In this document: positions 29,969 to 50,558 of the stretch, piece after piece
Numbering within the stretch: the stretch's first letter is position 1
How the letters are laid out: every line of letters begins with the position of its first letter
Source of the DNA: Gemmatimonadota bacterium
GTDB lineage: Bacteria > Gemmatimonadota > Gemmatimonadetes > Gemmatimonadales > Gemmatimonadaceae
DNA: 64,000 bases
NCBI GenBank assembly: GCA_027307165.1
Contig: DAHUXM010000021.1
Span: forward strand, 310,001 to 374,000
Direction of reading: 5' to 3'
Translations under genes and position numbers: made by a program
Notes under the pieces: generated by a model
The model's input: the letters and a program-made list of their open reading frames with translations, nothing else
Told to the model about the DNA's origin: nothing
Databases searched by the model: none

Positions 29969-29994
29969 CGGCCGCGATCTGCAGATCGCGGCCG
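29969..29994. repeat. 26-bp perfect palindrome
   Basis: CGGCCGCGATCTG followed immediately by its reverse complement CAGATCGCGGCCG. A spacer-free palindrome of this length suits a dimeric regulator or a replication/resolution site. It lies in the gene-free region upstream of the initiator gene. Confidence 0.8.
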
Positions 29995-30809: not shown

Positions 30810-30969
30810 GTCGTTTCGCTCCCAGCCAGTGGGACCTATAGTGCGCGACGATCAAATCAGCTGAGAGGGGGGCTTGCAGATCGGGTCCGGGGCCCAATAA
30901 CGCTGTAAGTGTAGCTCTGTACCGACGTCACCAAGATGTCTGTACGGCGCTGCGTTCCTCGCGCCATGC

Positions 30970-32100: not shown

Positions 32101-32208
32101 TCTAGTCCACAATCGGGCCGGATCCCCGCGGACCCGGGCCCACAGGGCGAATGCAACACTGCAGTACGACACCCTCCTTCTCCTTATCCTCTTCTTCCGC
32201 AGAATCTC

Positions 32209-33333: not shown

Positions 33334-33499
33334 TCGCGGCTGGCACCGCCGCAACTCCCTGGGATCCGTCCTGGCGACGTTGTCGTATCGGACACGTTGT
33401 GCCAGCGGATCAACTCCGTCACAACGGTCCCGCACGATCCGGTGGGGTAGTGGAGACTGGCAGTAAGCCCGGAAGGACCGCGACGGTGCGGACGTGCGT

Positions 33500-33907
33500 A
33501 TGATCCGCCTCACGCTTCCGCTGCCTCCGTCAACTAACCGCGCTGTACGCACAGGGAAGGGTAGGCACTACACACCGGCCCGCGTGCACGAGTTTCGGGC
33601 CGCAGTGGCTGCCGCAATCCGGGCACAACTGCCAGCACACAAGAGCCTCACGGGGCCGGTGCACGTGGCCGCGACCGTCGTGATGCACACTCGCGGTCTC
33701 GATCTTGACAACCGCGACAGCAAAATACTCTGGGACGCGTTGACGCGAGCTCGATTCTGGGTCGACGATTCGCAGGTGTGTTCGCGATCGTCCGTCCGCG
33801 TGCTGGACGCGGCCAACCCACGGGTCGAGCTTGAGGTCGTGCCGGTGACGGCTCCGGCGCTTATCGACGCCTGGCGAGCACGACCGCAAGTACGCAGGGC
33901 CAGGTAG
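33500..33907 (+). CDS. RusA-family Holliday junction resolvase
   Basis: A 135-residue endonuclease. The N-terminal LTLPLPPSTNRAVR matches RusA (P.P..N), and the catalytic segment LDLDNRDSKILWDALTRARF then WVDDSQV carries the three conserved Asp. RusA proteins are typical of lambdoid phages and act on recombination or replication intermediates. ATG 33500 is chosen over the GTG two codons upstream because the motif begins there. It belongs to the element's replication module. Confidence 0.88.
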   Translation: MIRLTLPLPPSTNRAVRTGKGRHYTPARVHEFRAAVAAAIRAQLPAHKSLTGPVHVAATVVMHTRGLDLDNRDSKILWDALTRARFWVDDSQVCSRSSVRVLDAANPRVELEVVPVTAPALIDAWRARPQVRRAR

Positions 33908-34389
33908 GGCTCTGTAGCGGTGGGCCGCCCGTGCCTCAACAGCCGTCTTGCAAAACACTGCGTACTCCAACAGTTCGTGGTCAATTCCTGCGAACGGCCG
34001 CGAGACGGAGAGGTGGTAGGCGCTGACTTGTACGCTGGAATCCTCAATCGCTCAGACTCGCCTCCGAGGTGGCATATCCGTCTCGTAGCTCACAGTCGCC
34101 CCACGGTGATCGCCAAGTCTAAGAGTGACACGCGCATCGACCCATTCACTGGCGGCGGACCGTATCTGGGACGATGGCGGATGGCGACGACGCGTACGCT
34201 GCGCGCTTCGAGCGCTACATACTCCCAACCGCAGCGTAGCAACCGGCGACGTTGCCTACGTCCTCGCTCACAGCGTCAACCGCCCCGTCCTAGACAATTG
34301 TACCCGTCGCGGGATCGGGCGCCGTCGGGTCAGGCGTCAGGCCGACACAGCAGCGGCGCCGTATCGGCCTGGCCGGGTAGGCTGCCTCC
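33908..34389. other. Gap after rusA
   Basis: About 480 bases. One plus-strand frame (33920-34393, 157 codons) is open but Arg/Ser/Pro-rich without domain character, so I do not call it. No hairpin or repeat of note was found. Confidence 0.4.
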
Positions 34390-34836
34390 ATGATACAACA
34401 GAGACAGCACGCACCCGCTCCAGACGCGCCGCTCAGTCGCGACGAAGCAATCGCCTCGGTTGGCCCTGGCTGGGCACGTCTCGTCGCTAACGCGTGGGAC
34501 GTCGCACACTCCGCGGGGTGGCCGGTCCTCACATGTAAGGAAAAGTTTGGCAGGCTCGTCATCTACTTGCGAAGCGGCGATATCACCGACACTCACCGCG
34601 TCCAAACAGTCGGACGCGCAATGTTTGACGCTGAGGAGCACTCCGCCGAGACATGCGAGGCGTGCGGAGCTCCCGGCGTGCTGTGGAACGACGTGACACA
34701 CGACGCACCGGAGCCCTTGGTGGGCGTGTCGCACGCCCGCTGGGTGAAAACCCTGTGCGTACCCTGCGCATGGCGCTATTACGGCGAGGGAGACCGTGGC
34801 TGGGATGACATCGCTGGGCGGTGGTGTGTGGGCTAA
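34390..34836 (+). CDS. Phage-type zinc-binding protein, unknown function
   Basis: A 148-residue protein. The pattern VGPGWARLVANAWDVAH, GWPVLTCKEKFGRLVIYL and two cysteine pairs (CEACGAPG and CVPC) with a C-terminal WRYYGEGDRGWDD is one I know from small phage hypotheticals sharing a KEKFG...L segment. A zinc-binding fold is likely; the function is unknown. ATG 34390 starts a clean frame; it stands alone between two gene-poor gaps. Confidence 0.6.
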   Translation: MIQQRQHAPAPDAPLSRDEAIASVGPGWARLVANAWDVAHSAGWPVLTCKEKFGRLVIYLRSGDITDTHRVQTVGRAMFDAEEHSAETCEACGAPGVLWNDVTHDAPEPLVGVSHARWVKTLCVPCAWRYYGEGDRGWDDIAGRWCVG

Positions 34837-35393
34837 ACTGCAGCGCGGAGATGGGCCAAGCGCACGGTCGCATACATGCCGCGCAGGGCCCCGTGGATCG
34901 CAGTCACTCGTCAACTCTTGGCATGACGGCAGGCTTGCCAACTGGGCCGGCATCGGACGTGGGCACCAGTGCTGGATGGACACACCTGCGTAGGAATCCG
35001 CCCCAATCTCACGCGTCTCGGGTGGAACGGCGCGCACGCTCGGCACGGCAGATATCAATTGGAGACGGCGGGCGGCGTGGTGAGACGGGCGGGCAGCATT
35101 CCCCAACGCTAACGGCCGCAAGCGGTCCTCGACCGATCTCCGCTCGTCCCGTTGTGGCGGTTTGATGCAATGCGTCGCGCGCTCTTGAGATCGCCGTGAA
35201 ATGCACAGCTCCGGGCTCTGCGGCACGCCGTCGCAACGCCTCCGGGTTGGGATCTGTCTCTCCCACGGATGTGGCTACAACTCGCGGTGCAGTAAGCCAG
35301 GTCGCAGACGGGGGTGCGGCTAGCGCAAGTGAGTTGAGCCGTGCGTCGCTTTGTGCCCTTACGTCTGACCAGCTGTGCCCGTAGTTTCACGGC
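34837..35393. other. Gap before the restriction endonuclease gene
   Basis: About 560 bases with only short low-quality frames on both strands. No C-protein gene or C-box-like palindrome was recognised, although such control elements are common ahead of type II restriction genes. Nothing further supported. Confidence 0.4.
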
Positions 35394-36020
35394 GTGAAAC
35401 TGGTGCATGTTGAGACACTCTTCGCCCGCGGTGCGTTTGCCGGCTCTGCAGAGCGAGAACAAGTTGACACCGAGATTCGTGACGCGATATCGCGAGTGGT
35501 GTGGCCACCGGGGAGTGACGGCTTCACGATCCATCCGCAGAGCGGCAAGAAGCGCGGCGAGGGGAACGGGGTCACACCAATCAAGGCCGCCTGCATGGCC
35601 GCACTGCAGGACGTGCATGGCTGGACGCTCGAAGCGCGCTACAAGATCGGCACTGGCAAGGGCACCGGCCCGATCGACGCGCTACGCGACGTGATGCTAC
35701 GCACGGCGGGTGAGAGCAAATTCGCGTTGGAGTGGGAGACCGGGAACATCTCGAGCTCGCACCGGTCTCTCAACAAGATGTGCTTGGGAATGATCGAAGG
35801 ACGGATAGCGGGTGGCGCGATCGTGCTCCCTTCCGGCTCCATGTATCCGTATCTAACCGATCGCGTCGGCAACTACCCCGAGATCCGCCCGTACCTCAAC
35901 TACTGGCGGGACGCGGTGACCGCGGATGGCGTGCTCGCGATCTATGTCGTGGAGCAGGACGCCGAAAGTTATGCGGTGCCTCGCATCCCAAAAGGCACGG
36001 ACGGCCGCGCCCTGCGGTAG
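35394..36020 (+). CDS. BamHI-family type II restriction endonuclease
   Basis: A 208-residue protein colinear with BamHI over nearly its whole length. Matching segments are VVWPPGSDGFTI, NGVTPIKAACMAALQDVHGW, GPIDAL, ALEWETGNISSSHRSLNKM, YLTDRVGNYPEIRPY and VPRIPKGTDG. The catalytic residues of BamHI (Glu77, Asp94, Glu111, Glu113) correspond to Glu80, Asp95, Glu113 and Glu115, all present. A GTG start is used. It should cut a GGATCC-like palindrome, but specificity cannot be read from this. The convergent methyltransferase gene ends 17 bases away. Identified from remembered BamHI sequence. Confidence 0.88.
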   Translation: MKLVHVETLFARGAFAGSAEREQVDTEIRDAISRVVWPPGSDGFTIHPQSGKKRGEGNGVTPIKAACMAALQDVHGWTLEARYKIGTGKGTGPIDALRDVMLRTAGESKFALEWETGNISSSHRSLNKMCLGMIEGRIAGGAIVLPSGSMYPYLTDRVGNYPEIRPYLNYWRDAVTADGVLAIYVVEQDAESYAVPRIPKGTDGRALR

Positions 36021-36037
36021 CGAGTCTCTTTAACGTG

Positions 36038-37087
36038 CTACCGTTTCTTCGACTTACCGTGTTGCGCGGCGGGAGATTCGACCGCGAATAGGTCAGGCTC
36101 GGGCCGGACGGATCCCCGTCGGTGCCGATCCATCGCCGCGGGGCTGACGCGTTTGATCCCACGTGCGGTCTCCCAGCGTGGGTGAAGACCGGCTGCGTGA
36201 TCCTCGAGTCGCTGCACCGCCGGCGCAGTGTCGCCGAGCTCGATCGTTGCCCAGCGTCGTCCAAGGTGCTCCGCAGCAACTGCAGTCGTGCCGGTGCCGC
36301 AGAACGGATCGATTACTAGGTCGCCGGGGTTTGTTGACATCCCAATACAACGCTCCAGCAGGATCGGCGCGAGCGCGTTTGCGTCGCGGTGTTTGTAGCG
36401 CGCGTGACGCACGGGAGGGACGTCCTCCCAAACCTCGTCAATGCGTGACCATCCCTGGCCTTTGGGGAGAGCAAACGGAGCCTCCTCCCAGACCTCTTCA
36501 GGAGCGTCGAAAACGTCCTGCAGACGCAGGCCAGCGGGGTTCAGTTTGTCACGATGACCGCCGTAATCTTTAACTTCGCCTCCGCAATGGCGGCACGTCT
36601 GCACCGGCTGGCGGATCACATTAAACGTCCGAGGCTTGCCCTTAGTGTAGTACAAGAGTGCGTAGTGTGACGGCGAGAGACGGCCAGGAATTGGCATCGA
36701 TTTGGGCATCCGACACGCGATCCAATGCCGAAATACCATCCCAGCGCGGTTCAGATGCGCCCCGTATTCGATGCACCAGCGGGGCAAGTTGAAAACCAAC
36801 AGCGCTCCACCGGGCGTGAGCACGCGCACACACTCGTCGAGCCACTCGCACGACCACGCCAGATACTCGGCCTCTGCCATGTCATCACGAACGCCGGCCC
36901 CGTAAATCTTCTTGAGGTTGAACGGAGGGTCCGCAAAGACACAGTCCACGCTCTCACTAGGTAGGGAGCGCAGCCAGGCGAGGCAGTCTCCCTGCCACAG
37001 CGTGCCCAGATCGGTCTCGTATACTACGCGAGGTGACTTCGTAGGCGTGGGTGCCTCTCTAGCGCGGCGGGGCTTGGGAGCAGTCAT
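36038..37087 (-). CDS. DNA methyltransferase (amino-group, DPPF type) partner of the BamHI-like enzyme
   Basis: A 349-residue SAM-dependent amino-methyltransferase. Catalytic motif IV is ADPPFNLKK (Asp53-Phe56), and SAM motif [18 protein letters not shown] follows at about 262, so motif IV precedes motif I as in beta-type enzymes. A central CRHCGGE segment and a Lys-rich tail are extra. Tail-to-tail pairing with the BamHI-like gene marks a type II R-M system. M.BamHI itself, as I recall, is an N4-cytosine enzyme with an SPPY-type motif; DPPF is more usual for N6-adenine enzymes, so the modified base is uncertain. GGAG precedes ATG by five bases. Confidence 0.85.
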
Positions 37088-37120
37088 CGGGTCTCCGTAA
37101 TCTACCGGGTGAGTTGATCC

Positions 37121-37150
37121 AGTATACCCCGCGCGGCGCCCGCGCCCTAA
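37121..37150 (-). promoter_or_regulatory. Promoter candidate for the methyltransferase
   Basis: On the minus strand TATACT (37126-37121) is a good -10 box 33 bases before the ATG, with a weak TTAGGG -35 about 18 bases further upstream. Position suits early methyltransferase expression. No operator overlaps it. Confidence 0.4.
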
Positions 37151-37407
37151 TCTCCGCCACGGAGAACTGCCCGCTCAGATCAGCGCCAGGGGATCCGACC
37201 CGTCGGGCGAATCCCCGGTGCGGTGATACAACGCGTGCTGCCTGCGCCGCCAATGGTTGCCGCGGGACGACCCCAACCATCGTTTCGAGCTGGCGAGTGT
37301 ACTCCGCCCCCCACGTGTAGCTCGTGTCACTTCCGGGCGAAGTGGGCACGCCCGCAGTCGGGTAGAGGACATTCTGCCGGAGTGTGTGCGCGGCGACCGT
37401 CGCGGCT

Positions 37408-37435
37408 CATACACAAACCGGGCGGTTTGTGTATG
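37408..37435. repeat. 28-bp inverted repeat in the methyltransferase-recombinase interval
   Basis: CATACACAAACCG, spacer GG, CGGTTTGTGTATG: 13-bp perfect arms. It lies 120 bases upstream of the serine recombinase start, in the ~470-base divergent region 37088-37557, which otherwise holds no gene. Candidate operator or recombination site for the recombinase. Confidence 0.75.
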
Positions 37436-37557
37436 CGAAGGCCATGTACGAGTCTAGGATTACGCATCCGGAGCACCCAGCGACGAAGCTGTCCGGTCGC
37501 TTGATACGGGGATCCGGTCCAACCGGGTAGGCTGTGCGGACATCCACGGAGACAGCC

Positions 37558-38370
37558 ATGCCGCGATCCCGCACGCGATCAATGAGACCACGTCAATCGG
37601 TGGGAACGGCGGTCGGTCTATGCCGAGCAGTTGCGTACACTCGCGTTTCGACGGAGGAACAGGCAACTGAAGGCGTCTCACTCGAGGCACAGGAGACACG
37701 TATCCGCGCGCACTGCCTCGCGCATGGCCTCGAGTTGACGGCCGTGTATCGCGATGCCGGTGTCAGCGGTGCAACGCCGCTTGAGCGCCGCCCTGCGGGT
37801 CGTGACCTCGCGAACGCAATCGAGACCGGCGAGCCGATGGTAGTCATCGCCGTCAAACTCGATAGGTGCTTTCGGAGCGCCTCCGACTGTCTTCAGACGG
37901 TTGAGCGATGGGTGGGGCTTGGTGTCGCATTGCACCTACTCGACATGGCGGTCGACACGCGTTCCGCTGCCGGGAAAATGTTTCTTACTCTCGCCGCCGC
38001 GTTCGCCGAATTGGAGCTTAACTCGATTCGCGAGCGCACGCGCGCCGCGCTGCGTCACAAGATGGCTCGCGGCGACCTCGTGCACGCGCCTGCGCTTGGG
38101 TTTTGCGCCGTCCAGGGGCGCGCTGAAATCGACACTCGCGAGCTTGAAGTCGCCCGACATGTGCTCGAACTCTGCGAGCAAGACGTGCCTTTCGCTGTGA
38201 TCGCCGCGCGCTTGAACGCAGAATCTGTGCGAACGAAACGCGGAGGCCGGTGGCACGCGAGCACAGTGCACAAGATTTGGAGCCGGCGGAGTGTCTACGC
38301 TTCTGCGGGTACGTGTCGTGAACGCTTCGAGTCGGGCGGCACCGCGTATGCCCGGTATCCTGCGGTATGA
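37558..38370 (+). CDS. Serine recombinase (resolvase/invertase catalytic domain)
   Basis: A 270-residue serine recombinase. Catalytic Ser is in AYTRVSTEEQ (near residue 31); DAGVSGATPLERRPAGRDL, VIAVKLDRCFRSASD and MFLTLAAAFAELELNSIRERT complete the resolvase domain. The C-terminal part (LELCEQDVPFAVIAARLNAE, RGGRWHASTVHKIWSRR) is the start of the 'Recombinase' DNA-binding domain. This size lies between classic resolvases (~190) and large serine integrases. GGAG precedes ATG 37558. Its stop overlaps the ATPase start (ATGA), so the two are translationally coupled. Target site unknown. Confidence 0.85.
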   Translation: MPRSRTRSMRPRQSVGTAVGLCRAVAYTRVSTEEQATEGVSLEAQETRIRAHCLAHGLELTAVYRDAGVSGATPLERRPAGRDLANAIETGEPMVVIAVKLDRCFRSASDCLQTVERWVGLGVALHLLDMAVDTRSAAGKMFLTLAAAFAELELNSIRERTRAALRHKMARGDLVHAPALGFCAVQGRAEIDTRELEVARHVLELCEQDVPFAVIAARLNAESVRTKRGGRWHASTVHKIWSRRSVYASAGTCRERFESGGTAYARYPAV

Positions 38371-39536
38371 CCACACAGCCGCCGTCATCCGGCGCGCACG
38401 AAGAAGGCAATCCAACTGCGTCCCAAGCGCCGTCGCTTACGCGGCCAGAGATTGGATCACCGAACAGTGCGTCCGGCTCGAGCGCAGACTGCTCAACACC
38501 ATTGGCGCGCCAGTGTGCCACGCTGCCCGCCCAAGAGTTGCGCTTTCTCATCCGGCAGGTGCGCGAGTCGATGTTGAAGCGGATTGTTGGACAAGACAAG
38601 GCGGTTTCGCAGCTCGCTTTGATTGGTGCGCTCCATGTCGGCGCTGGCTTGCCGTGCGGCGCACGTGCACTCGTCGTTGGACCGACCGGAAGCGGGAAGA
38701 CAAGCATAATCGACGCTCTGCACGACGCGCTGGCGGAATACGATCTCCGATGGGCGCGCGTCGATGCTGGTGACACAACGTCGCCAGGGTGGAGTGGCGC
38801 GCCGGCTATCGGAGATGTGATCTACTCTAGTCTCGCGGGTGCGCATCCTAATAGTTCCGTGGCGCGCCGCACTGTCGTTGTTGTTGACGAGGTCCACCAC
38901 ATTCGCGTAGTGCCTGGACTCACTGGTAACATGGGCCAAGCCAAAGCGGATGTGCTCGCATCGTGGTTGGGGCTGTTTGGCGGCGGTGTGCTACAAATTG
39001 GAGGCCAAGCGGGATGTCCCGCCGCGTGGTCAAGCCGCGAGGCACTCGTGATTGCGGTGGGAGCTTTTACGTCGCTGCTCGATACACGACGTTATCCGAC
39101 GCCGGAAGAATTGGTTCGACTCGGATTTCCGCTTGAACTCGCCACGCGTCTTGGCGAGATCGTGCTGGTCCGGTCGCTCGGTGAGGAGGCTCTTGTGCAG
39201 CTGCTTCGCCGGTGGCCAGAACTCACTGCGCTACAAGTTGTTTGTGCTCGATTGGGGTATCCGACCGAGATCACCGACGAGGCTTTTCGCCTCGCCGCGC
39301 GCGTTGTTACGCTCAGTAGAGGCACTGCTTCCGCTCGCAGCGCTGGCGCGTGGCTCACTGCCGCGTTGCGCGAAGGGCTCATCCAAGCGCTTGGCAACCC
39401 CGAACTCCGGCCAATTGTGGTGACACCCGACGCGCTGCCGATCCCGTTTCACGCAACGCGAAGGCGGGACGATGAGCCCCCCGATGACAACGGGGGGTGG
39501 GACGCAACTCTGGTGCTCACACCGCGTCGACAGTAG
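38367..39536 (+). CDS. ClpX-like AAA+ ATPase coupled to the serine recombinase
   Basis: A 389-residue AAA+ protein. Walker A GPTGSGKT (about 105-112) and Walker B VVVVDEVHH (about 169-177) are clear. Colinearity with ClpX is visible at RIVGQDKAVSQLAL, GWSGAPAIGDVIYSSL, EELVRLGFPLELATRLGE and LVRSLGEEALVQLL, the segment that carries the ClpX arginine finger region. The first 65 residues are disordered and replace the ClpX zinc domain; no IGF-type ClpP loop was recognised. Start overlaps the recombinase stop. Probable unfoldase or remodeller; partner inferred to be the recombinase or the downstream giant protein. Confidence 0.78.
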   Translation: MTTQPPSSGAHEEGNPTASQAPSLTRPEIGSPNSASGSSADCSTPLARQCATLPAQELRFLIRQVRESMLKRIVGQDKAVSQLALIGALHVGAGLPCGARALVVGPTGSGKTSIIDALHDALAEYDLRWARVDAGDTTSPGWSGAPAIGDVIYSSLAGAHPNSSVARRTVVVVDEVHHIRVVPGLTGNMGQAKADVLASWLGLFGGGVLQIGGQAGCPAAWSSREALVIAVGAFTSLLDTRRYPTPEELVRLGFPLELATRLGEIVLVRSLGEEALVQLLRRWPELTALQVVCARLGYPTEITDEAFRLAARVVTLSRGTASARSAGAWLTAALREGLIQALGNPELRPIVVTPDALPIPFHATRRRDDEPPDDNGGWDATLVLTPRRQ

Positions 39537-39856
39537 GTTGACTATGCTCGCGAAGCTCCTGTATCGTATCCGCGACATACCACGATAAGTCGATCGCTGC
39601 GTGGTGTGCTTCTTTAAGCGATGCAGCGAGCATTTGCGAGCGGCTGGGAGCACTGCGCCAGCTATCATGGTGTGCGTGCGTATCGGCGAGCCGAGACACC
39701 CAAGCGGCAAGTTGCGCTCCTTGTAATCATCTTTAGGTTCACTCGCGAGCACAGCAGGCGAGGCAGCATGATGGACCGGCTTAACTGAACGTGAGCAGGC
39801 TGCCTCTGCTTGCGCTACGACCTAGTTGAATACAATGCCCACAACGGCTGCTGAAC
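39537..39856. other. Gap between ATPase and giant GHKL gene
   Basis: About 320 bases. A minus-strand 60-codon frame (39517-39699, with SLKEAHHAAIDLSWYVADTI) overlaps the ATPase end and reads like a helical peptide, but no ribosome site or family supports it. The giant gene's promoter must lie here or upstream; none is obvious. Confidence 0.35.
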
Positions 39857-42800
39857 GTGATTGACCTCTCGACGATCTGGTCGAATCGGCTGAACCTCAT
39901 CGCCGAGAACCTCCGGTTAGGTGAGCGCGAGTACCGTGAGATCGCGGCGATAGCCCAACACGTTGGCTGGGACTACCACGGTCGATGTCTGATCGAGCTT
40001 ATCCAAAACGCCGCGGATCAAGCGACAATTGCAGGAATCGCTGAGTCAGCAGTCACTGTCATCAGAACCTCGGATTTGCTGGCGGTGATAAACGAAGGCC
40101 GCCCGCTTGATGATGATGGTGTACGGGCAATGACCGCCCTCGCGTTCGGGACTAAAGACCCGTCCGTGACAATCGGGAACAAGGGGCTCGGGTTTAAGGC
40201 CGTCTTTCAAGTCAGCGAATCCCCCGAAGTTTTCAGCGCGCCGGTTCGCGGCGGCGGCCTGCTTGCCGATGGCGGCTATCGCTTCGCGTTTTCGCCGTAT
40301 CCTCTGGAGAACGCGGAACTACAGGCAGTCCTGCGCCAGGTGGCCAAAGAATTCGAGGCGCGGGATCCCGTCGCCACACGCCGACTGAGTGATGAACACG
40401 GCATGGCAACGTTCTCGGAACTTCTGTTGAGCGAGGTGCGCCGCGGCGCACCGTTTCGATTCCCGCTCCCACTGCAGGAGGAGCATCTCCGGGTGAGAAT
40501 CGGAGAACTTGGGCTTACGGGTGACCAAGCCGACCGGGCGTCGGCGCTAGTTGTACTCCCGTTGCGTGCGAGCTCTGATGTCCAGCAAACGGTCAACACC
40601 GCGTGGTCTGAGCTCGTTGAAGATGTTGACAGTGCAACTCTTCTATTTCTCACAGGTATCGCCACGCTGCGCTTCGGCGACCAGACCACGGGCGTGACAC
40701 ACGTCTTGGAACGCGGAACTGACACCGAGCCCCGATTCTTCTGCCGGTCGGCCGGGGTAGGGTATGTCACACGTCGTACAACGCGGCGGACCGTCATAGC
40801 GCCGGGCGCACCTTTCACAGTGAATACACGTCACTGGTGGGTCTGCAGTCGGACTCTGGGGCGAGCAGAGGATTCCGACGAGGTAACCGCCGCGGAGGAG
40901 CGGCGTTCGCTGCGTAAAGCCGTTGCCGAATTGCCCGGCGACCAATGGGGCCAAGTGGATCGCGCGGCAGTGAGCGTCGCGTTGCCCATACCGATAACGA
41001 GTGCGGTGCCGCCCGCCCCGCTTGGAACCTCCGGAGTTTTCTGCATCGGATTACCGACGCAGATGCGAACCGGGATGCCTATTTGGGTGAACGCGCGTTT
41101 TCACGCTAATATCGCGCGTACTCAGATCGATCTCATGCAAAGCGACTATAATCGGATTCTCTTCGACGAAGCGACCGACCTTGTTGCCGCGCTGGTTCGC
41201 GCATTGAAAACTGGACCAGACGTCGAAACCCGTCGCCTTGCAACTCTAGCGCTTGAGTCATCACCCGAAAGTGTCCTCGGTGTGGGACTCCGCGGCCGAA
41301 GCCAACTTCTGGAAGACGAGACCGTGCTGGCGGCGGACGGCAGGAACTTCATCCGTGGTACCGAAGTGTCGATACCGCGCGAACGAGACGCTGAGATCTT
41401 CCAGTTGCTGACGTGGGGCGATGAAGGGGCAGCAGGGTTCGCACTTGCTGACAATGCATTGATGCGAAACGCGCGGCACGTGCTTCGCCAGCTCGGTGCG
41501 TCTGAGGGACCTCCCGCAGGACCGGATTGGCGCTACCTCGCGCGCGGTTCTGACGGAACGTCGGTCGTAGAGCGGGCGGCCACGCGAAACCGGCGAGGCG
41601 AGCCGGCGTTTTGGGACCAACTGCTATCTTGGCTCGTCGACCAATACTCCGGCGCTGCACTCGCGAGCCAGCGCGTATTGCCAACCGGTGAAAGTGACTT
41701 GACCGCATCGCAAGATAAAGTCTATGCGGCGCCGCTCCTCCCACATGTAAATGTTAGTGGGCACACGGCGAGTGATGAACGCAAGCTCGATCTGTTGATC
41801 GCCGAACGCCTGCACCTAATCGACGAAGCGTGTGTCCGCGTTCGCGAAATCGACAAGATTCGCTATACGCGTCTAGGGACTCGTTTGCGCCAGAGCGAGC
41901 CACCGCTAGTTCGCGACCCGGTTCTCGCCGATCTTGTCCGTGACGTGTTTGGACCTCTTGTCCAAGAACTGGCTAAAGACGCTGCGCGCTGGTCCGAGGC
42001 GATTTGGCTCGTGCGGTTAGTTGCGGAATGGGCCCGTGCCCGAGACATCAAGGATGTGTCTGCTGGTTCCCTCCGAGTGCCCGTTACAGTGGAGGGCGAC
42101 GGCGGGTGGCAGTGGGGCGCTCCGAACCGAGTGTACCTCGGAGCGGGTTGGAGCGACGCCGACACGAGCGCGCGCCTCGCACGGGCGTACGGTGCGAGGC
42201 CTAGCGGCCTCCTCATCAACTGGCCCGAGTTCGCGCGCATCGTCGGCGCCGAAGACAGAGACCGTGACAGCTGGGTCGAGGCTTTTGGTGGGCTCGGAGT
42301 TAGAGGACGTCCGCGCGTTCTCATACACGCTCACACAGCTACGCCCTTTCAGGCGTACTCCTATGGTGGGCCGCTCGTGCGCACCTCGCTGCGTTGCCCT
42401 CCCGCTCTTGCCCCGGTGACGGCCTCGTGGGTGGCATACCTAGACGCAATTCGGCACCGTAAGACGGCGGTTTGTTCGGGTCAGCCCTACGAGGTCGAGC
42501 GTCTGCTATGGCTGGATGGACTGGAGGTCGAAGACTCGCGGGCAGACGTGGTGGCGCTCGTGCTCCAAAATCCCGATGAGTACAGCGGTCTCGTAACCAC
42601 TCGACTGTGGCGAGCGGACGCGCATACGGATTCCACGGAGATACCAGCGCTATGGGTCCACGCAATCCGAAACGCCGATTGGCGTACGATCCCCACGACT
42701 CATGGGTTGTCGCGGCCCAGTGCAGCGTGGTTGCTAACTGCAGATCAGCGCCGGAATACGAATACCCACTATCGCTTCCTGCCCTGTATCACTGAACAAT

Positions 42801-45349
42801 CAGAAGCCGCTCAGCGGCTTCTGGTTGCATTCGGAGTCGCAACCCTCAACGACGCACCGCCCGAACGCTACGTACGAGCGCTACAACTGGTGGCCGAACG
42901 CCTCCACACCCTGACGATAGAGGAAATGAACGATGCGATCGTACTTACGGAAGAACTCTATCGGCACCTTCAGACTCGACTTTCGGCGGAGCTAATCCCG
43001 CTTCCCGTGTTGTTAGAGCGCGCGATACCTATGTTTGACGGTATTGACGGAAGGCGGCTCACGCCAGTCCAGCTTCGCGATTGTGGCGCGTTGCTCGTAA
43101 ACGACAATCCTGTCCGTGCACGGCTCGTAGTCGGAGCACGCTCTACGGCGGTGCTTCCCGTTTCGCCGCGCCGTGGTCAGGCAGCACTCGTCGCAGCAAT
43201 TGTGGCACAGATCGGGCAAGGTGTCGTTCGTTATACTGGTTCCGAACCAGTTGACTTAGCGTTCGTCGCCAACGCGACGCCCGACACCACGGTAGCCGCT
43301 TATTTGGAGCGCGCGTATGCAGGGCGCCCGCTCCGCAGAGACATCGGCTTACTCCTTTCGACCGTGCCCGCTGGCGCCTCAGAGCCGCTCGGCGAGCGGG
43401 CCAGGCACACGCTCGCACGGTTTGATGCCGTCCGGCTGCGATTCGGCCGGTTTGCGAGTCCGAGTGACCTAACGAGCTTTTTTGACGAGTTCGGTGAGAG
43501 CGGTGCGACTTTGCTCGTTGAGGAATCGATGGAAGCGGCTCCGCATCAGGTCTTCGCCGCGGCATGGGAACTCGCGGGCGCTCACCGCGACACTTGGGCA
43601 AGTTACGCGGCCGCGCTCCGCGACAACACGACCGAGCGGTTCCTTTCTGAGCGCGGAGTGACGGCGGCGGACCGACATGAAGTCGAGATTCTTTTGACCC
43701 CTGATCGAGATCACCGCTACGAATCACTCAAAGCTGATGCCTTGGCGGTCGCGCTACGGTACGGTGTCGTCGCTAATGTCGACGAGTTTGAAACGCAGTG
43801 GCCGCAACGCGCGGCGTCTGCGGATGCCATCGCGAACTTTGTGGGCTGTCCCGAGCTTGCTGATCTCCTCGCGCTTGCCGTGTCCGTCGACGACCGCGAG
43901 CCTGTTGTTCTCCGAGTGCTCGAACGAGCAGGTGTATCAGTTGACGACTGGCAAGCAGCGCGCGCGCTGCTCCGCCTTCCGCTGCATGAATTCGCTGCGT
44001 CACGGAGAGCATATGAGACTGCTCGTGCCGTTCTGATCGCGACACTCATGGGAACCGCCGCGCACGCATTGAGTGTCGATCTGGACCTCGCACGAGAGTG
44101 GATTGAGGATGTCGAGCACGAGCAGCCGGCGCCCGCGTTGCTGTACAGCCAAGCGACCGACGCCGAAATGCTAAGAGCGGTCACCACTTGGGCGGAAGGC
44201 ACGCCGACGCTACGAAGTAGACCGGGCCTAGCAGTTCTTCGCTCAAGAGTCGAGAGCGCGCTTCGTGTCGACGACACGAACCTTCTTGCGGCACTGCAGG
44301 CGACAACTAGCCAGCGTGAAACGGACGAATATCGGCTGCCGGCACAAGATCGCACTGCACGCGCTGAGCGAGATGTTGGCATCATCCTTGGTGTGGCTCG
44401 CCTAATCGCGGCGCAACTCGGCGAGAACGCCGATGCGATTACCGAACACGCAAATGACCGTCTCTCGGCGCTGACTCGCGGATGGTGGGCGAATAGATTC
44501 GCCGTGCTCGATGTACTGCGGCTCGCATTGCAAGATGTTGCGCCAACCACCACGCGCCGGCTTGTTGAGGCGCGCGCGTTCCGTGATGTTGGCCCACCCG
44601 GCAGCTTAGCCGCGAGAATACCCGAGGTCTCGAGCCCAGAACCGTCGAGGACCGGTCGCGGTGCGTCCGCAGCGGAGACTGTCTCGGCGGTGGGGGTTAA
44701 CCTTGAGCGCGCAGCGATGGATGCGGATCTTGCGCGCGGTAGCGAAGGGTTGCTCGGGGAGGCACTTCGCCGCGGGATTGGCGAGCCCGTTAAGTTTGCG
44801 ACCCTTCGACAGATCACTCGTCCCGCGGCGCCTCGGCAGCTGAGCCGAGCGCGGCCCGGACGCGGAAGAAGTTCGCACTTTTCGATGGCAGAGTTGCGCG
44901 AAGAGCGGGAACTCAACGGTCTCCTGGGCGAGGCTTTCGTCTACGAACTGTTTCGTGGGCAGCTGCCGAGCTTTGACTATGACTGCTGGCGCTCAACGGC
45001 AGCAGTTCGCTACGGCGTTGCGTCCGCTGGAGATGACGGACTGGGGGCTGATTTCGTCTACCGGGATTCAAGTGGCCTACTGACCGGTCGCGCCGACAGT
45101 CCGGAAGTATATCTCGAGGTGAAGGCCACTTCAGCCGGCGGCGCTGCGCCGTTTGAAATGTCCGCAGGCGAATGGGAAACTGCGCTGCGCTTCGACGTCG
45201 AGTCGTCCGCACGGGTTTATGCGATCGTGCGCGTTGAATTCGTCCGAACGACCCCGGCACTCCATCGGATATATGTGAATCCCGCGCGTCTAAGTCGGGA
45301 GGGTTTTTTGATCGTAGACGCTGCAGACTTACGCATCACGGGTGCCTGA
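39857..45349 (+). CDS. Giant GHKL-ATPase (sacsin/NO VEIN-like) protein with C-terminal DUF3883 nuclease-like domain
   Basis: An 1830-residue protein. The N-terminal ATP-binding domain is of sacsin/HSP90 type: N-box ELIQNAADQA (Glu47, Asn51, Asp54), INEGRPLDDDG and the lid-loop IGNKGLGFKAVF. About 1400 central residues are helical-repeat-like with no family I can name. The C-terminal DUF3883 (NO VEIN C-terminal) domain at about 1680-1790 has GEAFVYELF, GADFVY and YLEVKAT, which fit the PD-(D/E)XK nuclease pattern with Glu, Asp and Glu-x-Lys present. GTG start. The same domain order occurs in plant NO VEIN. In bacteria such proteins tend to sit in defence regions; function unproven. Confidence 0.82.
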   Translation: MIDLSTIWSNRLNLIAENLRLGEREYREIAAIAQHVGWDYHGRCLIELIQNAADQATIAGIAESAVTVIRTSDLLAVINEGRPLDDDGVRAMTALAFGTKDPSVTIGNKGLGFKAVFQVSESPEVFSAPVRGGGLLADGGYRFAFSPYPLENAELQAVLRQVAKEFEARDPVATRRLSDEHGMATFSELLLSEVRRGAPFRFPLPLQEEHLRVRIGELGLTGDQADRASALVVLPLRASSDVQQTVNTAWSELVEDVDSATLLFLTGIATLRFGDQTTGVTHVLERGTDTEPRFFCRSAGVGYVTRRTTRRTVIAPGAPFTVNTRHWWVCSRTLGRAEDSDEVTAAEERRSLRKAVAELPGDQWGQVDRAAVSVALPIPITSAVPPAPLGTSGVFCIGLPTQMRTGMPIWVNARFHANIARTQIDLMQSDYNRILFDEATDLVAALVRALKTGPDVETRRLATLALESSPESVLGVGLRGRSQLLEDETVLAADGRNFIRGTEVSIPRERDAEIFQLLTWGDEGAAGFALADNALMRNARHVLRQLGASEGPPAGPDWRYLARGSDGTSVVERAATRNRRGEPAFWDQLLSWLVDQYSGAALASQRVLPTGESDLTASQDKVYAAPLLPHVNVSGHTASDERKLDLLIAERLHLIDEACVRVREIDKIRYTRLGTRLRQSEPPLVRDPVLADLVRDVFGPLVQELAKDAARWSEAIWLVRLVAEWARARDIKDVSAGSLRVPVTVEGDGGWQWGAPNRVYLGAGWSDADTSARLARAYGARPSGLLINWPEFARIVGAEDRDRDSWVEAFGGLGVRGRPRVLIHAHTATPFQAYSYGGPLVRTSLRCPPALAPVTASWVAYLDAIRHRKTAVCSGQPYEVERLLWLDGLEVEDSRADVVALVLQNPDEYSGLVTTRLWRADAHTDSTEIPALWVHAIRNADWRTIPTTHGLSRPSAAWLLTADQRRNTNTHYRFLPCITEQSEAAQRLLVAFGVATLNDAPPERYVRALQLVAERLHTLTIEEMNDAIVLTEELYRHLQTRLSAELIPLPVLLERAIPMFDGIDGRRLTPVQLRDCGALLVNDNPVRARLVVGARSTAVLPVSPRRGQAALVAAIVAQIGQGVVRYTGSEPVDLAFVANATPDTTVAAYLERAYAGRPLRRDIGLLLSTVPAGASEPLGERARHTLARFDAVRLRFGRFASPSDLTSFFDEFGESGATLLVEESMEAAPHQVFAAAWELAGAHRDTWASYAAALRDNTTERFLSERGVTAADRHEVEILLTPDRDHRYESLKADALAVALRYGVVANVDEFETQWPQRAASADAIANFVGCPELADLLALAVSVDDREPVVLRVLERAGVSVDDWQAARALLRLPLHEFAASRRAYETARAVLIATLMGTAAHALSVDLDLAREWIEDVEHEQPAPALLYSQATDAEMLRAVTTWAEGTPTLRSRPGLAVLRSRVESALRVDDTNLLAALQATTSQRETDEYRLPAQDRTARAERDVGIILGVARLIAAQLGENADAITEHANDRLSALTRGWWANRFAVLDVLRLALQDVAPTTTRRLVEARAFRDVGPPGSLAARIPEVSSPEPSRTGRGASAAETVSAVGVNLERAAMDADLARGSEGLLGEALRRGIGEPVKFATLRQITRPAAPRQLSRARPGRGRSSHFSMAELREERELNGLLGEAFVYELFRGQLPSFDYDCWRSTAAVRYGVASAGDDGLGADFVYRDSSGLLTGRADSPEVYLEVKATSAGGAAPFEMSAGEWETALRFDVESSARVYAIVRVEFVRTTPALHRIYVNPARLSREGFLIVDAADLRITGA

Positions 45350-45435
45350 TCAAACACAAGCATCGCGCCCGCCGCATCCGCGTGTTACTGATCAGTGTGT
45401 AACGGGAGGGCCCGATCGTAGTCACAGTGTCGGCG

Positions 45436-47763
45436 TTACGGAGGAGTCGCGATTGATATCGGGGACACCACTTCTTTTTGCAGCGGCTTGTACCACTGGT
45501 CGTAGAGTATGTTTACCAGCAGGCCTAGCAATACAGTTCCGAGCACCAACCGGACAGCCACCCGGGCGCGTACCAATAGACTGAACGGCGTCCAAGTCGC
45601 GACGTAAGGCGCCCGCTTGCCATACTTGTGCGCTACCTCGATGCATACGAGTAGGTACAGCAGAATCAGCGGTGACCACCACCGCCACACACGAAGGACA
45701 GTTGCGATGTCAACGACATAGACCGCAGCTATGGCGCCGAGAATGGGCATGATCCATGGGAGCGCGACGTACCTCAACAAAAATCTCCAACGTGCATTGG
45801 TCTGCTTCTCCGTGTCGTCGCGCTGCCGCCGCTCGGTGACAAGCTGCTGTGCAAGCTGCTGTACCTCCGCCAGTTGTTGTTCTAACCGATCCTCGCGCCC
45901 CAAGCGTTCGGCGATCTCCGTTTCGTATCCGCTGAGCTGTGTAGCCTGCGCTTTGATCCGCTGGCCCGCGGATCGAAGATCAGATTCTGCTGATGCGGCG
46001 CGCGATCGCGCCTCTTCCTCCGCTGCGATCGCGGAGCGCCGGGCGTCAGCCAACTCAGCGTTGTGTTTCGCGAGTACCGCCGCCTCCTGCATAGCACGAT
46101 CACGTGCCTCTCCCACGTTCCTGACTTCAATGATTAGCTCGTTCTTGATTAGCTCGAGCTGCTCAGCCTCGTCCGGCTCCTGCTCGAGTTTCTGGCGCAG
46201 GGCACCGTTCACGAGGATGTGGGTGATCGTGGGTATCGATAGATCACCCACGTTCTCGTAGCGCGACAGAAGACCGAGGATCGCGAGCGTTGTATGCTCC
46301 GAGCGCGCGTCGAAGTCCGATGGGAAGAGTGATAACTGTAATCCTCCGAGAAGGGCCTGCTCCATGCCCTCGGTTCGCCCTGTCCAGAACTGAAGAATCT
46401 GGACGAGCGCCAACGGCTGCACACAAACGGGGATCCCGGTGCCGTTCCGCTTGTGTGCATCGAATGCGGTGAGCCGCAGATCTTCGGTAACTACCCAGTA
46501 TCCCGCGTCCGTCGGGGATTCGACGCGTGGCGGGCGTTTGTCATGGCAGAGATACCACAGCACGGTATCGTGTCGGATGCGGCCCCAAGACTTTGCTCGC
46601 GGTCCGAACTTCTCTTTCTCGAACCGCTCCTGAGCGGAGACGTCCGCAAGCACGTCATCACGGTTCTTGTAGCCCTCCGTCGCCGCGTTGTAAAGCTCGA
46701 TGCCCTCGTGGCGAAGGACAGACACCAAGTTCTCGGCGTAGGGCCCAAGAAAGTCGTCAGGTGTGAGCGTTCTTTCCGCCTTTGTCGCCGCTTCAGCGTA
46801 GGCCGCTGCCACATCCCCGAGATCACCAGTCGCGAGCGCCGCGTGCGCAAGCGTCTTCGATAACCGAAGTTGCTTTAGTGCGGCAAGCTCCGTTGAGATT
46901 GCCGCTCGGGTTTCGTCAACCGTGTCTGGAATCGCGTAGAGGCGAACGTCAACGCGGCCTGCGAGGCGTTTTGTTAGGTCGAGAAGCAATTGCGCGGCTC
47001 CTCGGCGCCCCTCACCGTGCAAACCAAGGATCGAAAGGAGCACGTTCGTATCAAGGAAGAGCACGAACGTCGGCTGCATGCAGGCGACGCGGTCGAGCTC
47101 GGCCAAGGTGCCACTACTGAGTTGGCTTGCTTCTGCTACGAAATACACGTCCATCAGGTGCAGCAGGTACCGACGAACATCCGCATCACTCGGGTCCAAA
47201 AAGCGGGAAATCGCCTCCCGCATTGCCGCATGGCCGTCGTGCGGAATGCCGCTAAGGAACCTCGCGAGATCGCTTCCAGCTAACCAGTCGTGGTAGTTTC
47301 CGCTGATAAGCTCGTACGTACGAGCGCCGAGCGAACACACAGTCGGCGTGAGCCACTGCTCAACGAACCGGTCCCATGTGGCATCGGGATCAAGCGTGAG
47401 TCCGGCATCGACAAGCTCCCTGATAAACTTTGCTTTCGTCGCAGCCTGCAAAGCTCGCCCCGCTTCGCGTTCGGCAGCCAGCAACCCCAGCATCTCCTCG
47501 GAGACCTTTAGCGTGCCTGAGGGGAGCGTGACGACGGACCCTGCGCTTCTGAGTCGGACCAATTGACGTTGGACTTGATTAGCGGCCAATCCAACGCCGT
47601 GACGTTGGCGTATCTCGCCTGCAACGTCATCCGGATGGAGGGGACGGTCCGAAAGCCATATTGCGACCAACACGAGGCGCTCCATAGCCCGCTCCCACCA
47701 GCCGTCCTCGTTGAGCTGGACGTGGTGCACGAGCGAAACGACTTCCTGCGGGAGCGACGACAC
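45436..47763 (-). CDS. PIN-domain nuclease with coiled coil and three C-terminal membrane helices
   Basis: A 775-residue protein from GTG 47763, which has GGAG seven bases upstream; the open frame continues 80 codons further but looks noncoding. A winged-helix-like N-terminus (about 20-90: LHPDDVAGEIRQRHGVGL) is followed by a PIN core: VLFLDTNVLLSIL (Asp238), DTVDETRA (Glu284), RHDTVLWYLC (Asp399) and YWVVTEDLRL (Asp428), the acidic quartet of PIN RNases. A coiled coil (about 540-655) leads to helices YVALPWIMPILGAIAAVYVV, PLILLYLLVCIEVAHK and LVLGTVLLGLLVNILYD. It is convergent with the giant GHKL gene. A membrane-tethered nuclease effector is plausible, but inferred. Confidence 0.72.
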   Translation of the reverse strand: MSSLPQEVVSLVHHVQLNEDGWWERAMERLVLVAIWLSDRPLHPDDVAGEIRQRHGVGLAANQVQRQLVRLRSAGSVVTLPSGTLKVSEEMLGLLAAEREAGRALQAATKAKFIRELVDAGLTLDPDATWDRFVEQWLTPTVCSLGARTYELISGNYHDWLAGSDLARFLSGIPHDGHAAMREAISRFLDPSDADVRRYLLHLMDVYFVAEASQLSSGTLAELDRVACMQPTFVLFLDTNVLLSILGLHGEGRRGAAQLLLDLTKRLAGRVDVRLYAIPDTVDETRAAISTELAALKQLRLSKTLAHAALATGDLGDVAAAYAEAATKAERTLTPDDFLGPYAENLVSVLRHEGIELYNAATEGYKNRDDVLADVSAQERFEKEKFGPRAKSWGRIRHDTVLWYLCHDKRPPRVESPTDAGYWVVTEDLRLTAFDAHKRNGTGIPVCVQPLALVQILQFWTGRTEGMEQALLGGLQLSLFPSDFDARSEHTTLAILGLLSRYENVGDLSIPTITHILVNGALRQKLEQEPDEAEQLELIKNELIIEVRNVGEARDRAMQEAAVLAKHNAELADARRSAIAAEEEARSRAASAESDLRSAGQRIKAQATQLSGYETEIAERLGREDRLEQQLAEVQQLAQQLVTERRQRDDTEKQTNARWRFLLRYVALPWIMPILGAIAAVYVVDIATVLRVWRWWSPLILLYLLVCIEVAHKYGKRAPYVATWTPFSLLVRARVAVRLVLGTVLLGLLVNILYDQWYKPLQKEVVSPISIATPP

Positions 47764-48376
47764 CAATGATCTCCAAAGCTGCGAGAAAGTTCTGCTACGG
47801 CTGAGAAACGCACAAAGATACCCCGTCCAACGCGGCGCGGCGACGAGTGCATACACCCGCGGTTCATCCGGACGCTGGGCCTTGGGGTCGGGAGCGTGGG
47901 CGGGAGTGTCAGATCGAAATTTGCGCTGATGGATCCGTAGAAGGGGGGAACGCGGGTTGCGACACGCTCGCCGGGTCCGTCGGCCCACCTGCGTCCCAGC
48001 CACGTGCGCGAGGAAGGGAGGCAGTTCGCCGTCGGCATCATTGTTCCCCGGCCAACTCCCGGGGGTTCGATGTACTACAGCGAACAGTTGAACTCCGCAA
48101 AGTTTTCGACGAGCTGCGGAGGATTACCGAGCTGGGTGCATCCGGGCGCGTCACTGTGAATGCTCGCCGCAGGCTCGAGTCTCTGGCCGAGCGAGCCGTC
48201 GCCGAGCAGATTTCTGACTGCTTTCTCCGCGTCACTTGCGCGGGCGGCGGCGGCGGGCAGTTTGGCCACGAGCATCTGGAGACGATTGAGCGATGTGCAG
48301 AGGTAAGCGAAGCTGTATTGCCCTTGGCTCGCCTGAGGGTTGGAGTCGGGAAGCACCTCTCAGGCCGCCGGAATGG
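47764..48376. other. Divergent interval between PIN-TM and HNH genes
   Basis: About 610 bases. Overlapping frames on both strands have some protein character: plus 47847-48545 (ELRRITELGASGRVTVNARR) and minus 48075-48356 (NRLQMLVAKLPAAAARASDA). Neither has a good start or family match, and they exclude each other. Promoters for both flanking genes should lie here. Confidence 0.4.
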
Positions 48377-48991
48377 ATGTGGAGTGAGGTGGGCGCGTTC
48401 TCCCGCGCCGCGCGTATGGCAGCGGACGGAAACGTCGCTGCAGCGCGCGACGGATTCCGCGCTTTGCGCGAAAACGAGGCGCGCGAGTGGTTCGTCGAGC
48501 ACGCCCAAGTCGCGGGGATTCATCGTGCACGGGTGCTTGGGCTAGTGCGGCCAGTGTCCAGCAGCAATGCGTCGCGCACGCAGCCGAGACAGCGCACGCC
48601 GGCCGCAGTACGCCGCCGCGTTTGGGAGCGCGACCGATACCATTGCCGCTACTGTGCGCTGCCGACGATCAACGAGCAGGTGCGCGCTGCTCTTCAAGGA
48701 ATCGTCGGCGCCGACGTCATCACGTGGGGCGGCACGAATGCGGTGCGCCACGGCATCGCATTCGTTGCGCGCCCCGAGTACGACCACGTGGAGCCCGTGT
48801 CGCTCGGCGGAGCTAACGACGAGACGAACCTTGTAACAGCGTGCCCGGGCTGCAACTACGGGAAAGACCGGTTCACGCTCCAGGAGATCGGACTCGACGA
48901 TCCGCGCTCTCGCCCGCCCCTGTCGTCGGATTGGGACGGCCTGACATCGCTGCTAACGGCGTTGCGGTCGATCGCGACCAGCGTCCGTTGA
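48377..48991 (+). CDS. HNH endonuclease
   Basis: About 204 residues from ATG 48377 (an in-frame start at 48293 would add 28 poorly coding residues). The HNH core is RRRVWERDRYHCRYC, then EYDHVEPVSLGGANDETNLV and ACPGCNYGKDRFTLQE, with Cys pairs, the DH step and the N residue of the fold intact. The N-terminal helix-rich region (AARDGFRALRENEAREWFVE) is unrecognised. The next gene is a DUF6998 protein 13 bases downstream. It may be a restriction-like or homing-type nuclease of the element. Confidence 0.78.
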   Translation: MWSEVGAFSRAARMAADGNVAAARDGFRALRENEAREWFVEHAQVAGIHRARVLGLVRPVSSSNASRTQPRQRTPAAVRRRVWERDRYHCRYCALPTINEQVRAALQGIVGADVITWGGTNAVRHGIAFVARPEYDHVEPVSLGGANDETNLVTACPGCNYGKDRFTLQEIGLDDPRSRPPLSSDWDGLTSLLTALRSIATSVR

Positions 48992-49004
48992 ACGCGGTGC
49001 GGAC

Positions 49005-49502
49005 TTGAGCCGCGAAGCGCCGACGAGCGCCGCCCCGGACGTCTGCCAGGCTGTCGATGTTGAGCAGGTACCCGCGCTGGTGCGTGAACTCTACGTCACG
49101 GCGGCCAAGCTGGAGGCGTTGTTTCCGACGCGCCGCTTCACGCTCGACGGGCACCTTGTCGGCAGTATCGGCGAAGTGATCGCGAGCGCATGGTACGGTC
49201 TTGAGTTGCTGCCCGCATCGACAGAAGCGCATGATGCTCGCTCACGGGATGGACGACTGGTTCAGGTTAAGGCGACGCAGCGGATGATGATCGGGCTGAC
49301 TGCCTGCCCCGAGCACTTAATTGTGCTGCGCTTGCTCTCTGATGGTACCGCGGAGGAGGTATACAATGGCCCCGGTGACCGTGCGTGGGTGCGCGTCGGG
49401 CCGAGGCAGAAGACGTCACTATGTCACATCTCAGTAACTACCCTGAGAACGCTGATGGCGGGTGTTCCGGATGAGGCCAAGTTGGCGCGGCTTCGCAGGT
49501 AG
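49005..49502 (+). CDS. DUF6998-type PD-(D/E)XK-like protein
   Basis: A 165-residue protein (TTG start) with the family pattern VGSIGEVIASAWYGLELLP, STEAHDA..DGRLVQVKAT and HLIVLRLLSDGTAEEVYNGPG. Glu in GEVIA, Asp in HDAR and the QVKAT lysine form a PD-(D/E)XK-like constellation. The family is found beside restriction systems and in mobile elements; function not established. It follows the HNH gene after 13 bases and probably shares its transcript. Confidence 0.7.
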   Translation: MSREAPTSAAPDVCQAVDVEQVPALVRELYVTAAKLEALFPTRRFTLDGHLVGSIGEVIASAWYGLELLPASTEAHDARSRDGRLVQVKATQRMMIGLTACPEHLIVLRLLSDGTAEEVYNGPGDRAWVRVGPRQKTSLCHISVTTLRTLMAGVPDEAKLARLRR

Positions 49503-49807
49503 CCGCGCTCGGTGTCTCCGCGTCACCGGAACTGGAGCCGGTGCGGGCGAATCATTGTAACCGTTATGCGATCGCTCGGCGGCGGCGGAACACTTCAAGA
49601 GCACCGCCATTTGGCAACACCAGCAGGTGCCTTCGGCACGAGTCCGTATTCGCGGACCCAGGAAATCGTCCAATACGACCGCGTGACGCGTTCACCGGCG
49701 TGCGCTTGAGCGCACCCGTAAATCCGGGGTCGAAGTCCCCTGGCAAAACAGTACCAACGCCCCAAATCCGTTTCCTAGTTCAGTGCTCCCACTGCGTCGC
49801 CCGTTGG
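49503..49807. other. Gap before the XRE regulator
   Basis: About 300 bases between convergent genes; only short Arg/Pro-rich frames on both strands. No recognised hairpin. Nothing to report. Confidence 0.35.
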
Positions 49808-50029
49808 TTAAGGCGGGGGAAAGACGTCGCCCACCGGTCGTTCGATGAGCCGCGCGATCTTTGATTTGAGCGCAACCGACCCGTTGCGCTTTCCGTGCAA
49901 GACGAGCCACCAGTGGTTGTATGATACGGCGCACTCTTGCGCGACTTTCGTCATCGTGGTCTGGCGGAGCACTACAGCGGCTTTTACCGCGGCGAGCCGC
50001 TCTAGAGGGGTCATTGACCGGGATCGCAT
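49808..50029 (-). CDS. Small XRE/Cro-like DNA-binding protein
   Basis: A 73-residue protein: MTPLERLAAVKAAVVLRQTT, then the helix-turn-helix MTKVAQECAVSYNHWWLVLHGKRN and a C-terminal helix SKIARLIERPVGDVF. The shape matches short Cro/CI-type regulators from phages, where QECAVSYNHWWLV is the recognition region and the ending VGDVFPP is typical. The only recognised repressor-like gene of the element, located 450 bases from attR. Probably controls element gene expression or copy number. Confidence 0.65.
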   Translation of the reverse strand: MRSRSMTPLERLAAVKAAVVLRQTTMTKVAQECAVSYNHWWLVLHGKRNGSVALKSKIARLIERPVGDVFPPP

Positions 50030-50484
50030 CGGTAGTAAACATCCAGCGGCTAGCGGTTGCTAGGCGAACAACGCGGAAGATAATCGGCAGTAGCTGACGC
50101 TGTGTTCTTACGCGCTTAATCGAGTGTCGCGCGCCTGCTATCCTGCCAACAGACAGGATCACCGTCTAGCCGGCTCTCCGCGTCACACCATTGATTTGTT
50201 CCCGCGATTCACTGGATGCCTTAAGAGGTACGTGAGGGTACGGTGCATCCGCCTCGCGGGAGCGCTGGTTGCACGTTATAATGTTTGGCTACGCTACGAG
50301 GCCGGATCATCCCGGGAACTGCCAGGACGAGTGGGGCAAAAACGGGGCAGAGGCTGGTCCGGATCAGCCGAGATATGACCGGACGTGCCGAGACATGCCG
50401 AGGCACGTTCTCGACGAGCCGAGCAGTGTATGTTGGTTTGTAGCAATGAGATATACAGTGCAAAGTGAAGCGTAGCAACGGTTT
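50030..50484. other. Element right end, with possible arm sites
   Basis: No gene. GCCGAG occurs four times between about 50365 and 50425 and CATGCCGAG/TGCCGAGA variants repeat there; together with the 18-bp motif at 50332-50349 this looks like a cluster of protein-binding sites beside attR. GAGATATACAG at about 50448-50458 could be a -10 region supplying the tRNA with an element-borne promoter; the -35 is poor. Confidence 0.4.
50332..50349 (+). promoter_or_regulatory. Possible integrase arm-type site, right
   Basis: TGGGGCAAAAACGGGGCA, matching the left-end motif at 21269-21286 in 15 of 18 positions and in the same orientation, 135 bases inside attR. Role inferred. Confidence 0.4.
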
Positions 50485-50524
50485 GCCCCCGTAGCTCAGG
50501 TGGATAGAGCAGCAGTTTCCTAAA
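50485..50524. repeat. attR: direct repeat copy within the intact tRNA
   Basis: Identical to 21177-21216. The crossover must have occurred within these 40 bases, so the first 40 bases of the functional tRNA most likely came with the element. Confidence 0.9.
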
Positions 50525-50558
50525 CTGTTGGCCGCGTGTTCGAGTCACGCCGGGGGCA
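50485..50558 (+). tRNA. tRNA-Arg (anticodon CCT)
   Basis: A 74-base cloverleaf: acceptor GCCCCCG/CGGGGGC, D arm GCTC-AGGTGGATA-GAGC, anticodon stem GCAGT/ACTGT with loop TTCCTAA (anticodon CCT), variable TGGCC, T arm GCGTG-TTCGAGT-CACGC, discriminator A. CCA is not encoded. All stems pair fully. It reads rare AGG codons. It is the integration site of the element, reconstituted at the right junction. Confidence 0.95.

Follow-up and report, generated by a model that had tools for sequence, protein, structure and literature searches.

A distant but apparently full-length TmtA, carried on an integrative island of a Gemmatimonadota bacterium and probably a branch of the Tiamat defence family

An 1830-residue protein of a Gemmatimonadota bacterium is read here, with a probability of about 60%, as the product of a diverged tmtA gene of the anti-phage system Tiamat, which was gained on an integrative island and most likely encodes an ATP-gated nuclease. 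The DNA analyzed is a stretch of 64,000 nucleotides, hereafter the window, and its relevant features are collected in Table 1. This reading is supported by a TmtA profile match, a complete sacsin-type ATP site, the HSP90/GHKL and PD-(D/E)XK folds of the two ends, an empty integration site in a genome of the same genus, and the defence genes, with no fixed partner, found beside relatives. Against it stand the failure of the isolated middle region to match TmtA, the identity of 8–20% between this region and typical TmtA, a long branch in the tree, the Asn79 that takes the place of an HSP90 aspartate, and nuclease fold scores of Z < 8.

Table 1. Features of the window discussed in the text (window positions)
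Feature	Position	Strand	Basis or remark
Left attachment site, repeating the tRNA-Arg(CCT) 5' half over 40 bp	21177..21216	+	direct repeat, empty-site comparison with G030
Integrative island with tmtA, about 29.3 kb	21217..50484	.	absent from same-genus genome G030
OLD/AriA/GajA-like ATPase-TOPRIM protein, on island	22171..24165	+	
Tyrosine integrase, likely island integrase	25826..27265	-	Pfam Phage_integrase, E 9.4e-13
DNA methylase, on island	36038..37087		
Short serine recombinase, 278 aa	37534..38370	+	upstream of tmtA
AAA ATPase, weak ClpX-like matches	38367..39536	+	upstream of tmtA
tmtA-like gene, 1830 aa, GTG start	39857..45349	+	open frame; PADLOC TmtA match, E 4.6e-83
Residues 20–453, predicted GHKL (HSP90 N-like) + transducer/middle module, sacsin kind	39914..41215	+	NCBIfam P_loop_sacsin, AlphaFold, conservation
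Residues 454–1676, middle region, folded in model; presumed sensor/linker	41216..44884	+	AlphaFold models
Residues 1677–1830, predicted PD-(D/E)XK nuclease fold, NOV_C/DUF3883	44885..45346	+	Pfam NOV_C, fold matches, invariant residues
Intact tRNA-Arg(CCT), right attachment site	50485..50558	+	ARAGORN, Rfam RF00005, repeat

The open reading frame itself had been proposed in an earlier note made from the letters alone, and it holds: its 1830 codons contain a sole stop at the terminus, and the copy in the whole-genome assembly is identical and likewise open. A PDB sequence search with the window protein returned no match. Both end domains are recognized by profiles, namely NCBIfam P_loop_sacsin at residues 43–125 (E 5e-18, passing its cut-off) and Pfam NOV_C (PF13020, equivalent to DUF3883) at residues 1723–1804 (E 9.9e-6; score 26 bits, cut-off 22.1). 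These matches bear out the proposed architecture of an ATPase followed by a nuclease, as well as the proposed domain order of plant NO VEIN, in which a sacsin-type ATPase comes first and NOV_C last.

TmtA is the single protein of Tiamat, an anti-phage system reportedly introduced by Millman et al. in 2022. In PADLOC-DB, TmtA is the best family for the window protein (E 4.6e-83, judged by E value; models PDLC03964–PDLC03972), and seven TmtA profiles match it. The matched stretches cover residues 9–1197 and the C-terminus, where residues 1634–1815 fall on profile positions 1592–1763 of 1782. Taken alone, the N-terminal 500 residues still give an E value of 6e-61 against TmtA, and the final 230 residues recover these profile positions at 5.1e-18; the match is therefore regarded as collinear from end to end, as the two pieces lie at corresponding ends of the profile. 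The earlier note knew of no named system with this exact protein; the PADLOC search that it recommended returned TmtA, and Tiamat is a described system of the same architecture, the very outcome that it had named in advance as speaking against novelty. Its suggestion of a defence role, by contrast, gains from homology to a defence family. Judged by sequence, the window protein is a distant but full-length TmtA that adds a branch to Tiamat, and it is not a new system because Tiamat has already been named: it shares the whole-protein profile, the GHKL nucleotide site, the NOV_C PD-(D/E)XK residues and the lack of a conserved partner. Tiamat is enriched in Actinobacteria and its mechanism is listed as unknown (PMC10482375); it is common in island hotspots of Pseudomonas (PMC12629846), and DUF3883 was called a restriction-endonuclease domain in 2013 (PMC3710099).

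Relatives are numerous. Single-protein-query scans of genome contigs and viral contigs gave no confirmed relatives, but an alignment-based scan of species genomes found at least 444, from which 80 loci were retained. Plasmids of Burkholderia and Roseovarius encode proteins annotated as "DUF3883 domain-containing", which exceed 1800 bits against the TmtA profile, are matched by it along their whole length, and can be aligned with the window protein from one end to the other; relatives reach 1841 bits on this profile, and every full-length relative examined was TmtA in PADLOC-DB. Among the matches listed, four full-length relatives are 30–32% identical over the whole length, and these come from a Planctomycetales bin (L078), two proteobacterial bins (L079, L081) and Lautropia (L080). 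A maximum-likelihood analysis of the N-terminal parts of 41 proteins groups the window protein with these four in one clade (SH-aLRT 100), and the branch that divides this clade from the other 36 TmtA proteins has a length of 1.63 changes per site. On sequence grounds, this separate clade, far from the other TmtA proteins compared, is a new finding. Two interrupted reading frames were also observed among the loci: a relative of the same clade from a Chthoniobacteraceae bin (L082, 8716–14372) reads as two ORFs that part near residue 200, through either a sequencing error or a real break, and on a Desulfosarcina plasmid (L035, NZ_CP087953.1, 8881–16163) the TmtA gene stops early at an annotated group II intron, resumes past it with 73.6% identity to the Flammeovirgaceae locus L109, and halts before the nuclease domain.

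The depth of this clade invites the alternative of a separate system that has its ends in common with Tiamat but a different middle sensor and a different trigger or target. The isolated middle also speaks for it: residues 451–1250 alone match no TmtA profile, and identity to typical TmtA is 8–20% in the middle versus 23–31% in the ATPase. The clade nevertheless agrees with TmtA in length and in domain order and aligns with it over the full length, the whole-protein profile match continues as far as position 1162 and then takes up the C-terminal piece, and both relatives of the clade that were scanned (L078 and L080) also scored as TmtA, so that a separate system appears unlikely.

The fold and residues of the N-terminal part point to a sacsin-type ATPase. 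AlphaFold modelling, with inputs that left out the plasmid rows, produced a model of residues 1–660 with a pLDDT of 82 and a pTM of 0.81, which matched HSP90/TRAP1 at a Foldseek E of about 1e-8 and aligned in VIA-align with Hsc82 (Z 16.0), topoisomerase VI-B and GyrB (15), MORC3 (14.2), sacsin SR1 (13.8; 3.2 Å over 183 residues) and MutL (13.7). Because of these fold matches and the residue signature, residues 20–453 of the model are assigned as a GHKL and transducer module of the sacsin kind. Of 41 aligned proteins, 40 retain E47, N51 and D54, and all retain N79, K100, G107, K109, G110 and G112; R421, also present in every one, sits between a strand (410–413) and a long helix (430–451) of the model and, from that position, is probably the catalytic arginine. 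The adenine-contacting Asp of the HSP90 DxGxG motif is replaced by Asn79 in all 41 proteins, and P83 and F84 also occur in the TmtA set, position 84 being Leu in the window protein, whose nucleotide signature (Asn79, Lys100 and GxxGxG) is that of sacsin. In sacsin, all three repeats have Asn in place of the HSP90 Asp; a Phe follows a few positions on, the lid carries a Lys, and an arginine further downstream corresponds to HSP90 Arg380; ATP binding by sacsin is supported by modelling despite this change (PMC9880540). The possibility that Asn79 marks a dead ATPase was set aside on that account. The earlier note's description of the ATPase box as intact thus applies in the sacsin sense, because sacsin carries the same Asp-to-Asn change and E47, N51, D54 and the glycines are kept, but not in the HSP90 sense. 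Residues 20–453 would accordingly be expected to bind and hydrolyze ATP.

Between the two ends lies a long middle region, as the earlier note had stated, although its figure of about 1400 residues without assignment comes down to about 1220 once residues 20–453 are taken as an HSP90 N-terminal and middle module. The region is mostly confidently folded in the AlphaFold models; a search against PDB and viral folds gave nothing at E ≤ 0.001, and the VIA rows for the model of residues 641–1830 cover the C-terminus only, so that the middle is not thereby shown to be a new fold. Profile self-comparison revealed only off-diagonal matches of E ≥ 0.07, and no internal repeats are claimed.

The C-terminal domain is modelled as a nuclease. 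In the model of residues 641–1830 (pLDDT 81, pTM 0.53), the last 150 residues or so adopt a PD-(D/E)XK fold, with the SPARDA nuclease (Z 7.8) and the Hjc resolvase (7.0; 2.9 Å over 106 residues) as the closest matches, followed by DpnI (6.6), SwaI, HincII and RecU; each Z-score is below 8, yet almost all of the matches listed share the PD-(D/E)XK fold. E1692 (in GxxGE), D1732, E1754, V1755 and K1756 are invariant in all 40 rows that contain the domain, which, together with the NOV_C match above cut-off, agrees with the PD-(D/E)XK residues that had been claimed for DUF3883. Nuclease activity would follow from this fold, while the choice between phage and host nucleic acid cannot be told from the fold alone.

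For a diverged TmtA acting as an ATP-gated nuclease, the following sequence of events may be proposed. ATP would bind the sacsin/HSP90-type module, where E47 would act as catalytic base, N51 would serve magnesium, and N79 and the lid residue K100 would serve the nucleotide, to which R421 would reach in from the middle domain. Binding would close the molecule, which may dimerize in the manner of HSP90, MutL and GyrB; what the long middle region senses may be a product of the phage, or else a state of DNA or nucleoprotein; and closure would set the PD-(D/E)XK domain on nucleic acid for cutting, the substrate being either phage DNA or, in abortive infection, host nucleic acid. The window copy would presumably act against phage in this manner. 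Alternatively, abortive infection could proceed through a substrate other than DNA, such as RNA, with a chaperone-like middle that detects a misfolded or abundant phage protein; the N-terminal half is indeed nearest in fold to the HSP90 chaperone and sacsin, and the substrate does not follow from the fold of the nuclease, but the top nuclease matches are all DNA enzymes, and this version is considered quite improbable.

The island is delimited by a tRNA gene. In the same-genus genome G030, sequence like window positions 21001–21216 runs unbroken into sequence like that from 50485 onwards and holds one intact tRNA-Arg(CCT); together with the 40-bp repeat on the left and the whole tRNA on the right, this empty site leads to the conclusion that 29.3 kb was inserted. 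The mobile element envisaged in the earlier note is thus real, given the tRNA repeat and the empty site, but its extent of 12 kb (37558–49502) was wrong. Relative to the tRNA gene, the island is on the 5' side, and the displaced copy comprises the 5' half as far as the anticodon loop; attachment usually involves the 3' end, so that the arrangement here is the opposite. Besides the genes in Table 1, the island encodes HNH and DUF6998 proteins. The serine recombinase and AAA ATPase genes (37534–39536, +) overlap by 4 bases and are possibly a nested mobile unit; as a system with TmtA they were rejected, since neither was seen adjoining the relatives. Convergent with tmtA lies a gene (45436–48003, -) for an 855-residue protein of no known family; in the 246 genomes of the class searched, it has only two clear relatives (32–33% identity).

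Beside the relatives, an OLD homologue 47.5% identical to that of the island lies directly downstream of TmtA in the Flammeovirgaceae bin (L109), whereas none of the other island genes (methylase, recombinase, AAA, HNH, DUF6998) was seen there. Within flanks of about 9 kb, no neighbour family recurs beyond small groups of close kin; in many cases the neighbours are further defence genes, including BrxL, a PLD-helicase with a DUF1156 methylase, RtcR-CARF, C5 methylases and Z1. Such neighbourhoods fit a single-gene system residing in defence islands. A housekeeping chaperone or repair ATPase without a defence role, which the HSP90, sacsin and MutL folds of the N-terminus might suggest, is highly improbable in view of the invariant nuclease residues, a patchy gene (of the family's 148 genomes, 4 give any match, and only the window genome a full-length one), an island absent from the same-genus genome, the defence genes adjoining relatives, and a matching profile that belongs to a defence family.

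The new elements of this analysis are the separate clade, the HSP90-like N-terminal and middle module, the PD-(D/E)XK fold, both as modelled, and the 29.3-kb island with its empty site. Tiamat is widespread, and predictions at the level of residues bear on its mechanism; the named residues (E47, N79, K100 and R421; E1692, D1732, E1754 and K1756) make the hypothesis of an ATP-gated nuclease testable. Moreover, the findings point to a sacsin-type nucleotide site that this family of bacterial defence proteins has in common with large proteins of eukaryotes.

Among known systems, Tiamat is the closest: it is likewise a single protein of about 1800 residues with an N-terminal GHKL ATPase and a C-terminal DUF3883/NOV_C nuclease, a collinear profile match, no fixed partner and a defence-island setting, whereas the window protein stands in a separate deep clade with a middle that, alone, falls below profile detection. 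NO VEIN, which has a developmental role in plants, is alike in domain order, with a sacsin-type ATPase, a long middle and then NOV_C; this likeness derives from the Pfam NOV_C match and a hint in the literature. All "Tiamat" matches in plant metagenomes sat on plant genome sequences (PMC12409356), which fits a plant NO VEIN that shares the TmtA architecture. It is conceivable, though doubtful, that the clade represents a second Tiamat type whose middle has adapted to another phage trigger, and that the whole family is an ATP-gated nuclease sensor kept by plants as NO VEIN. Sacsin resembles the window protein, by alignment, in the Asn for Asp, the Phe or Leu after it, the lid Lys and the position of the putative catalytic arginine, and, in the model, in the SR1 fold (Z 13.8); it differs in having three ATPase modules instead of one, and its DnaJ and HEPN domains were not found by Pfam and NCBIfam in the window protein, which ends in a nuclease. 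Finally, MutL, MORC, GyrB and topoisomerase VI-B share the GHKL and transducer fold (Z 13–15), and MutL of many bacteria also joins a GHKL clamp to an endonuclease; the nuclease fold of the window protein is a different one, and its middle is far larger.
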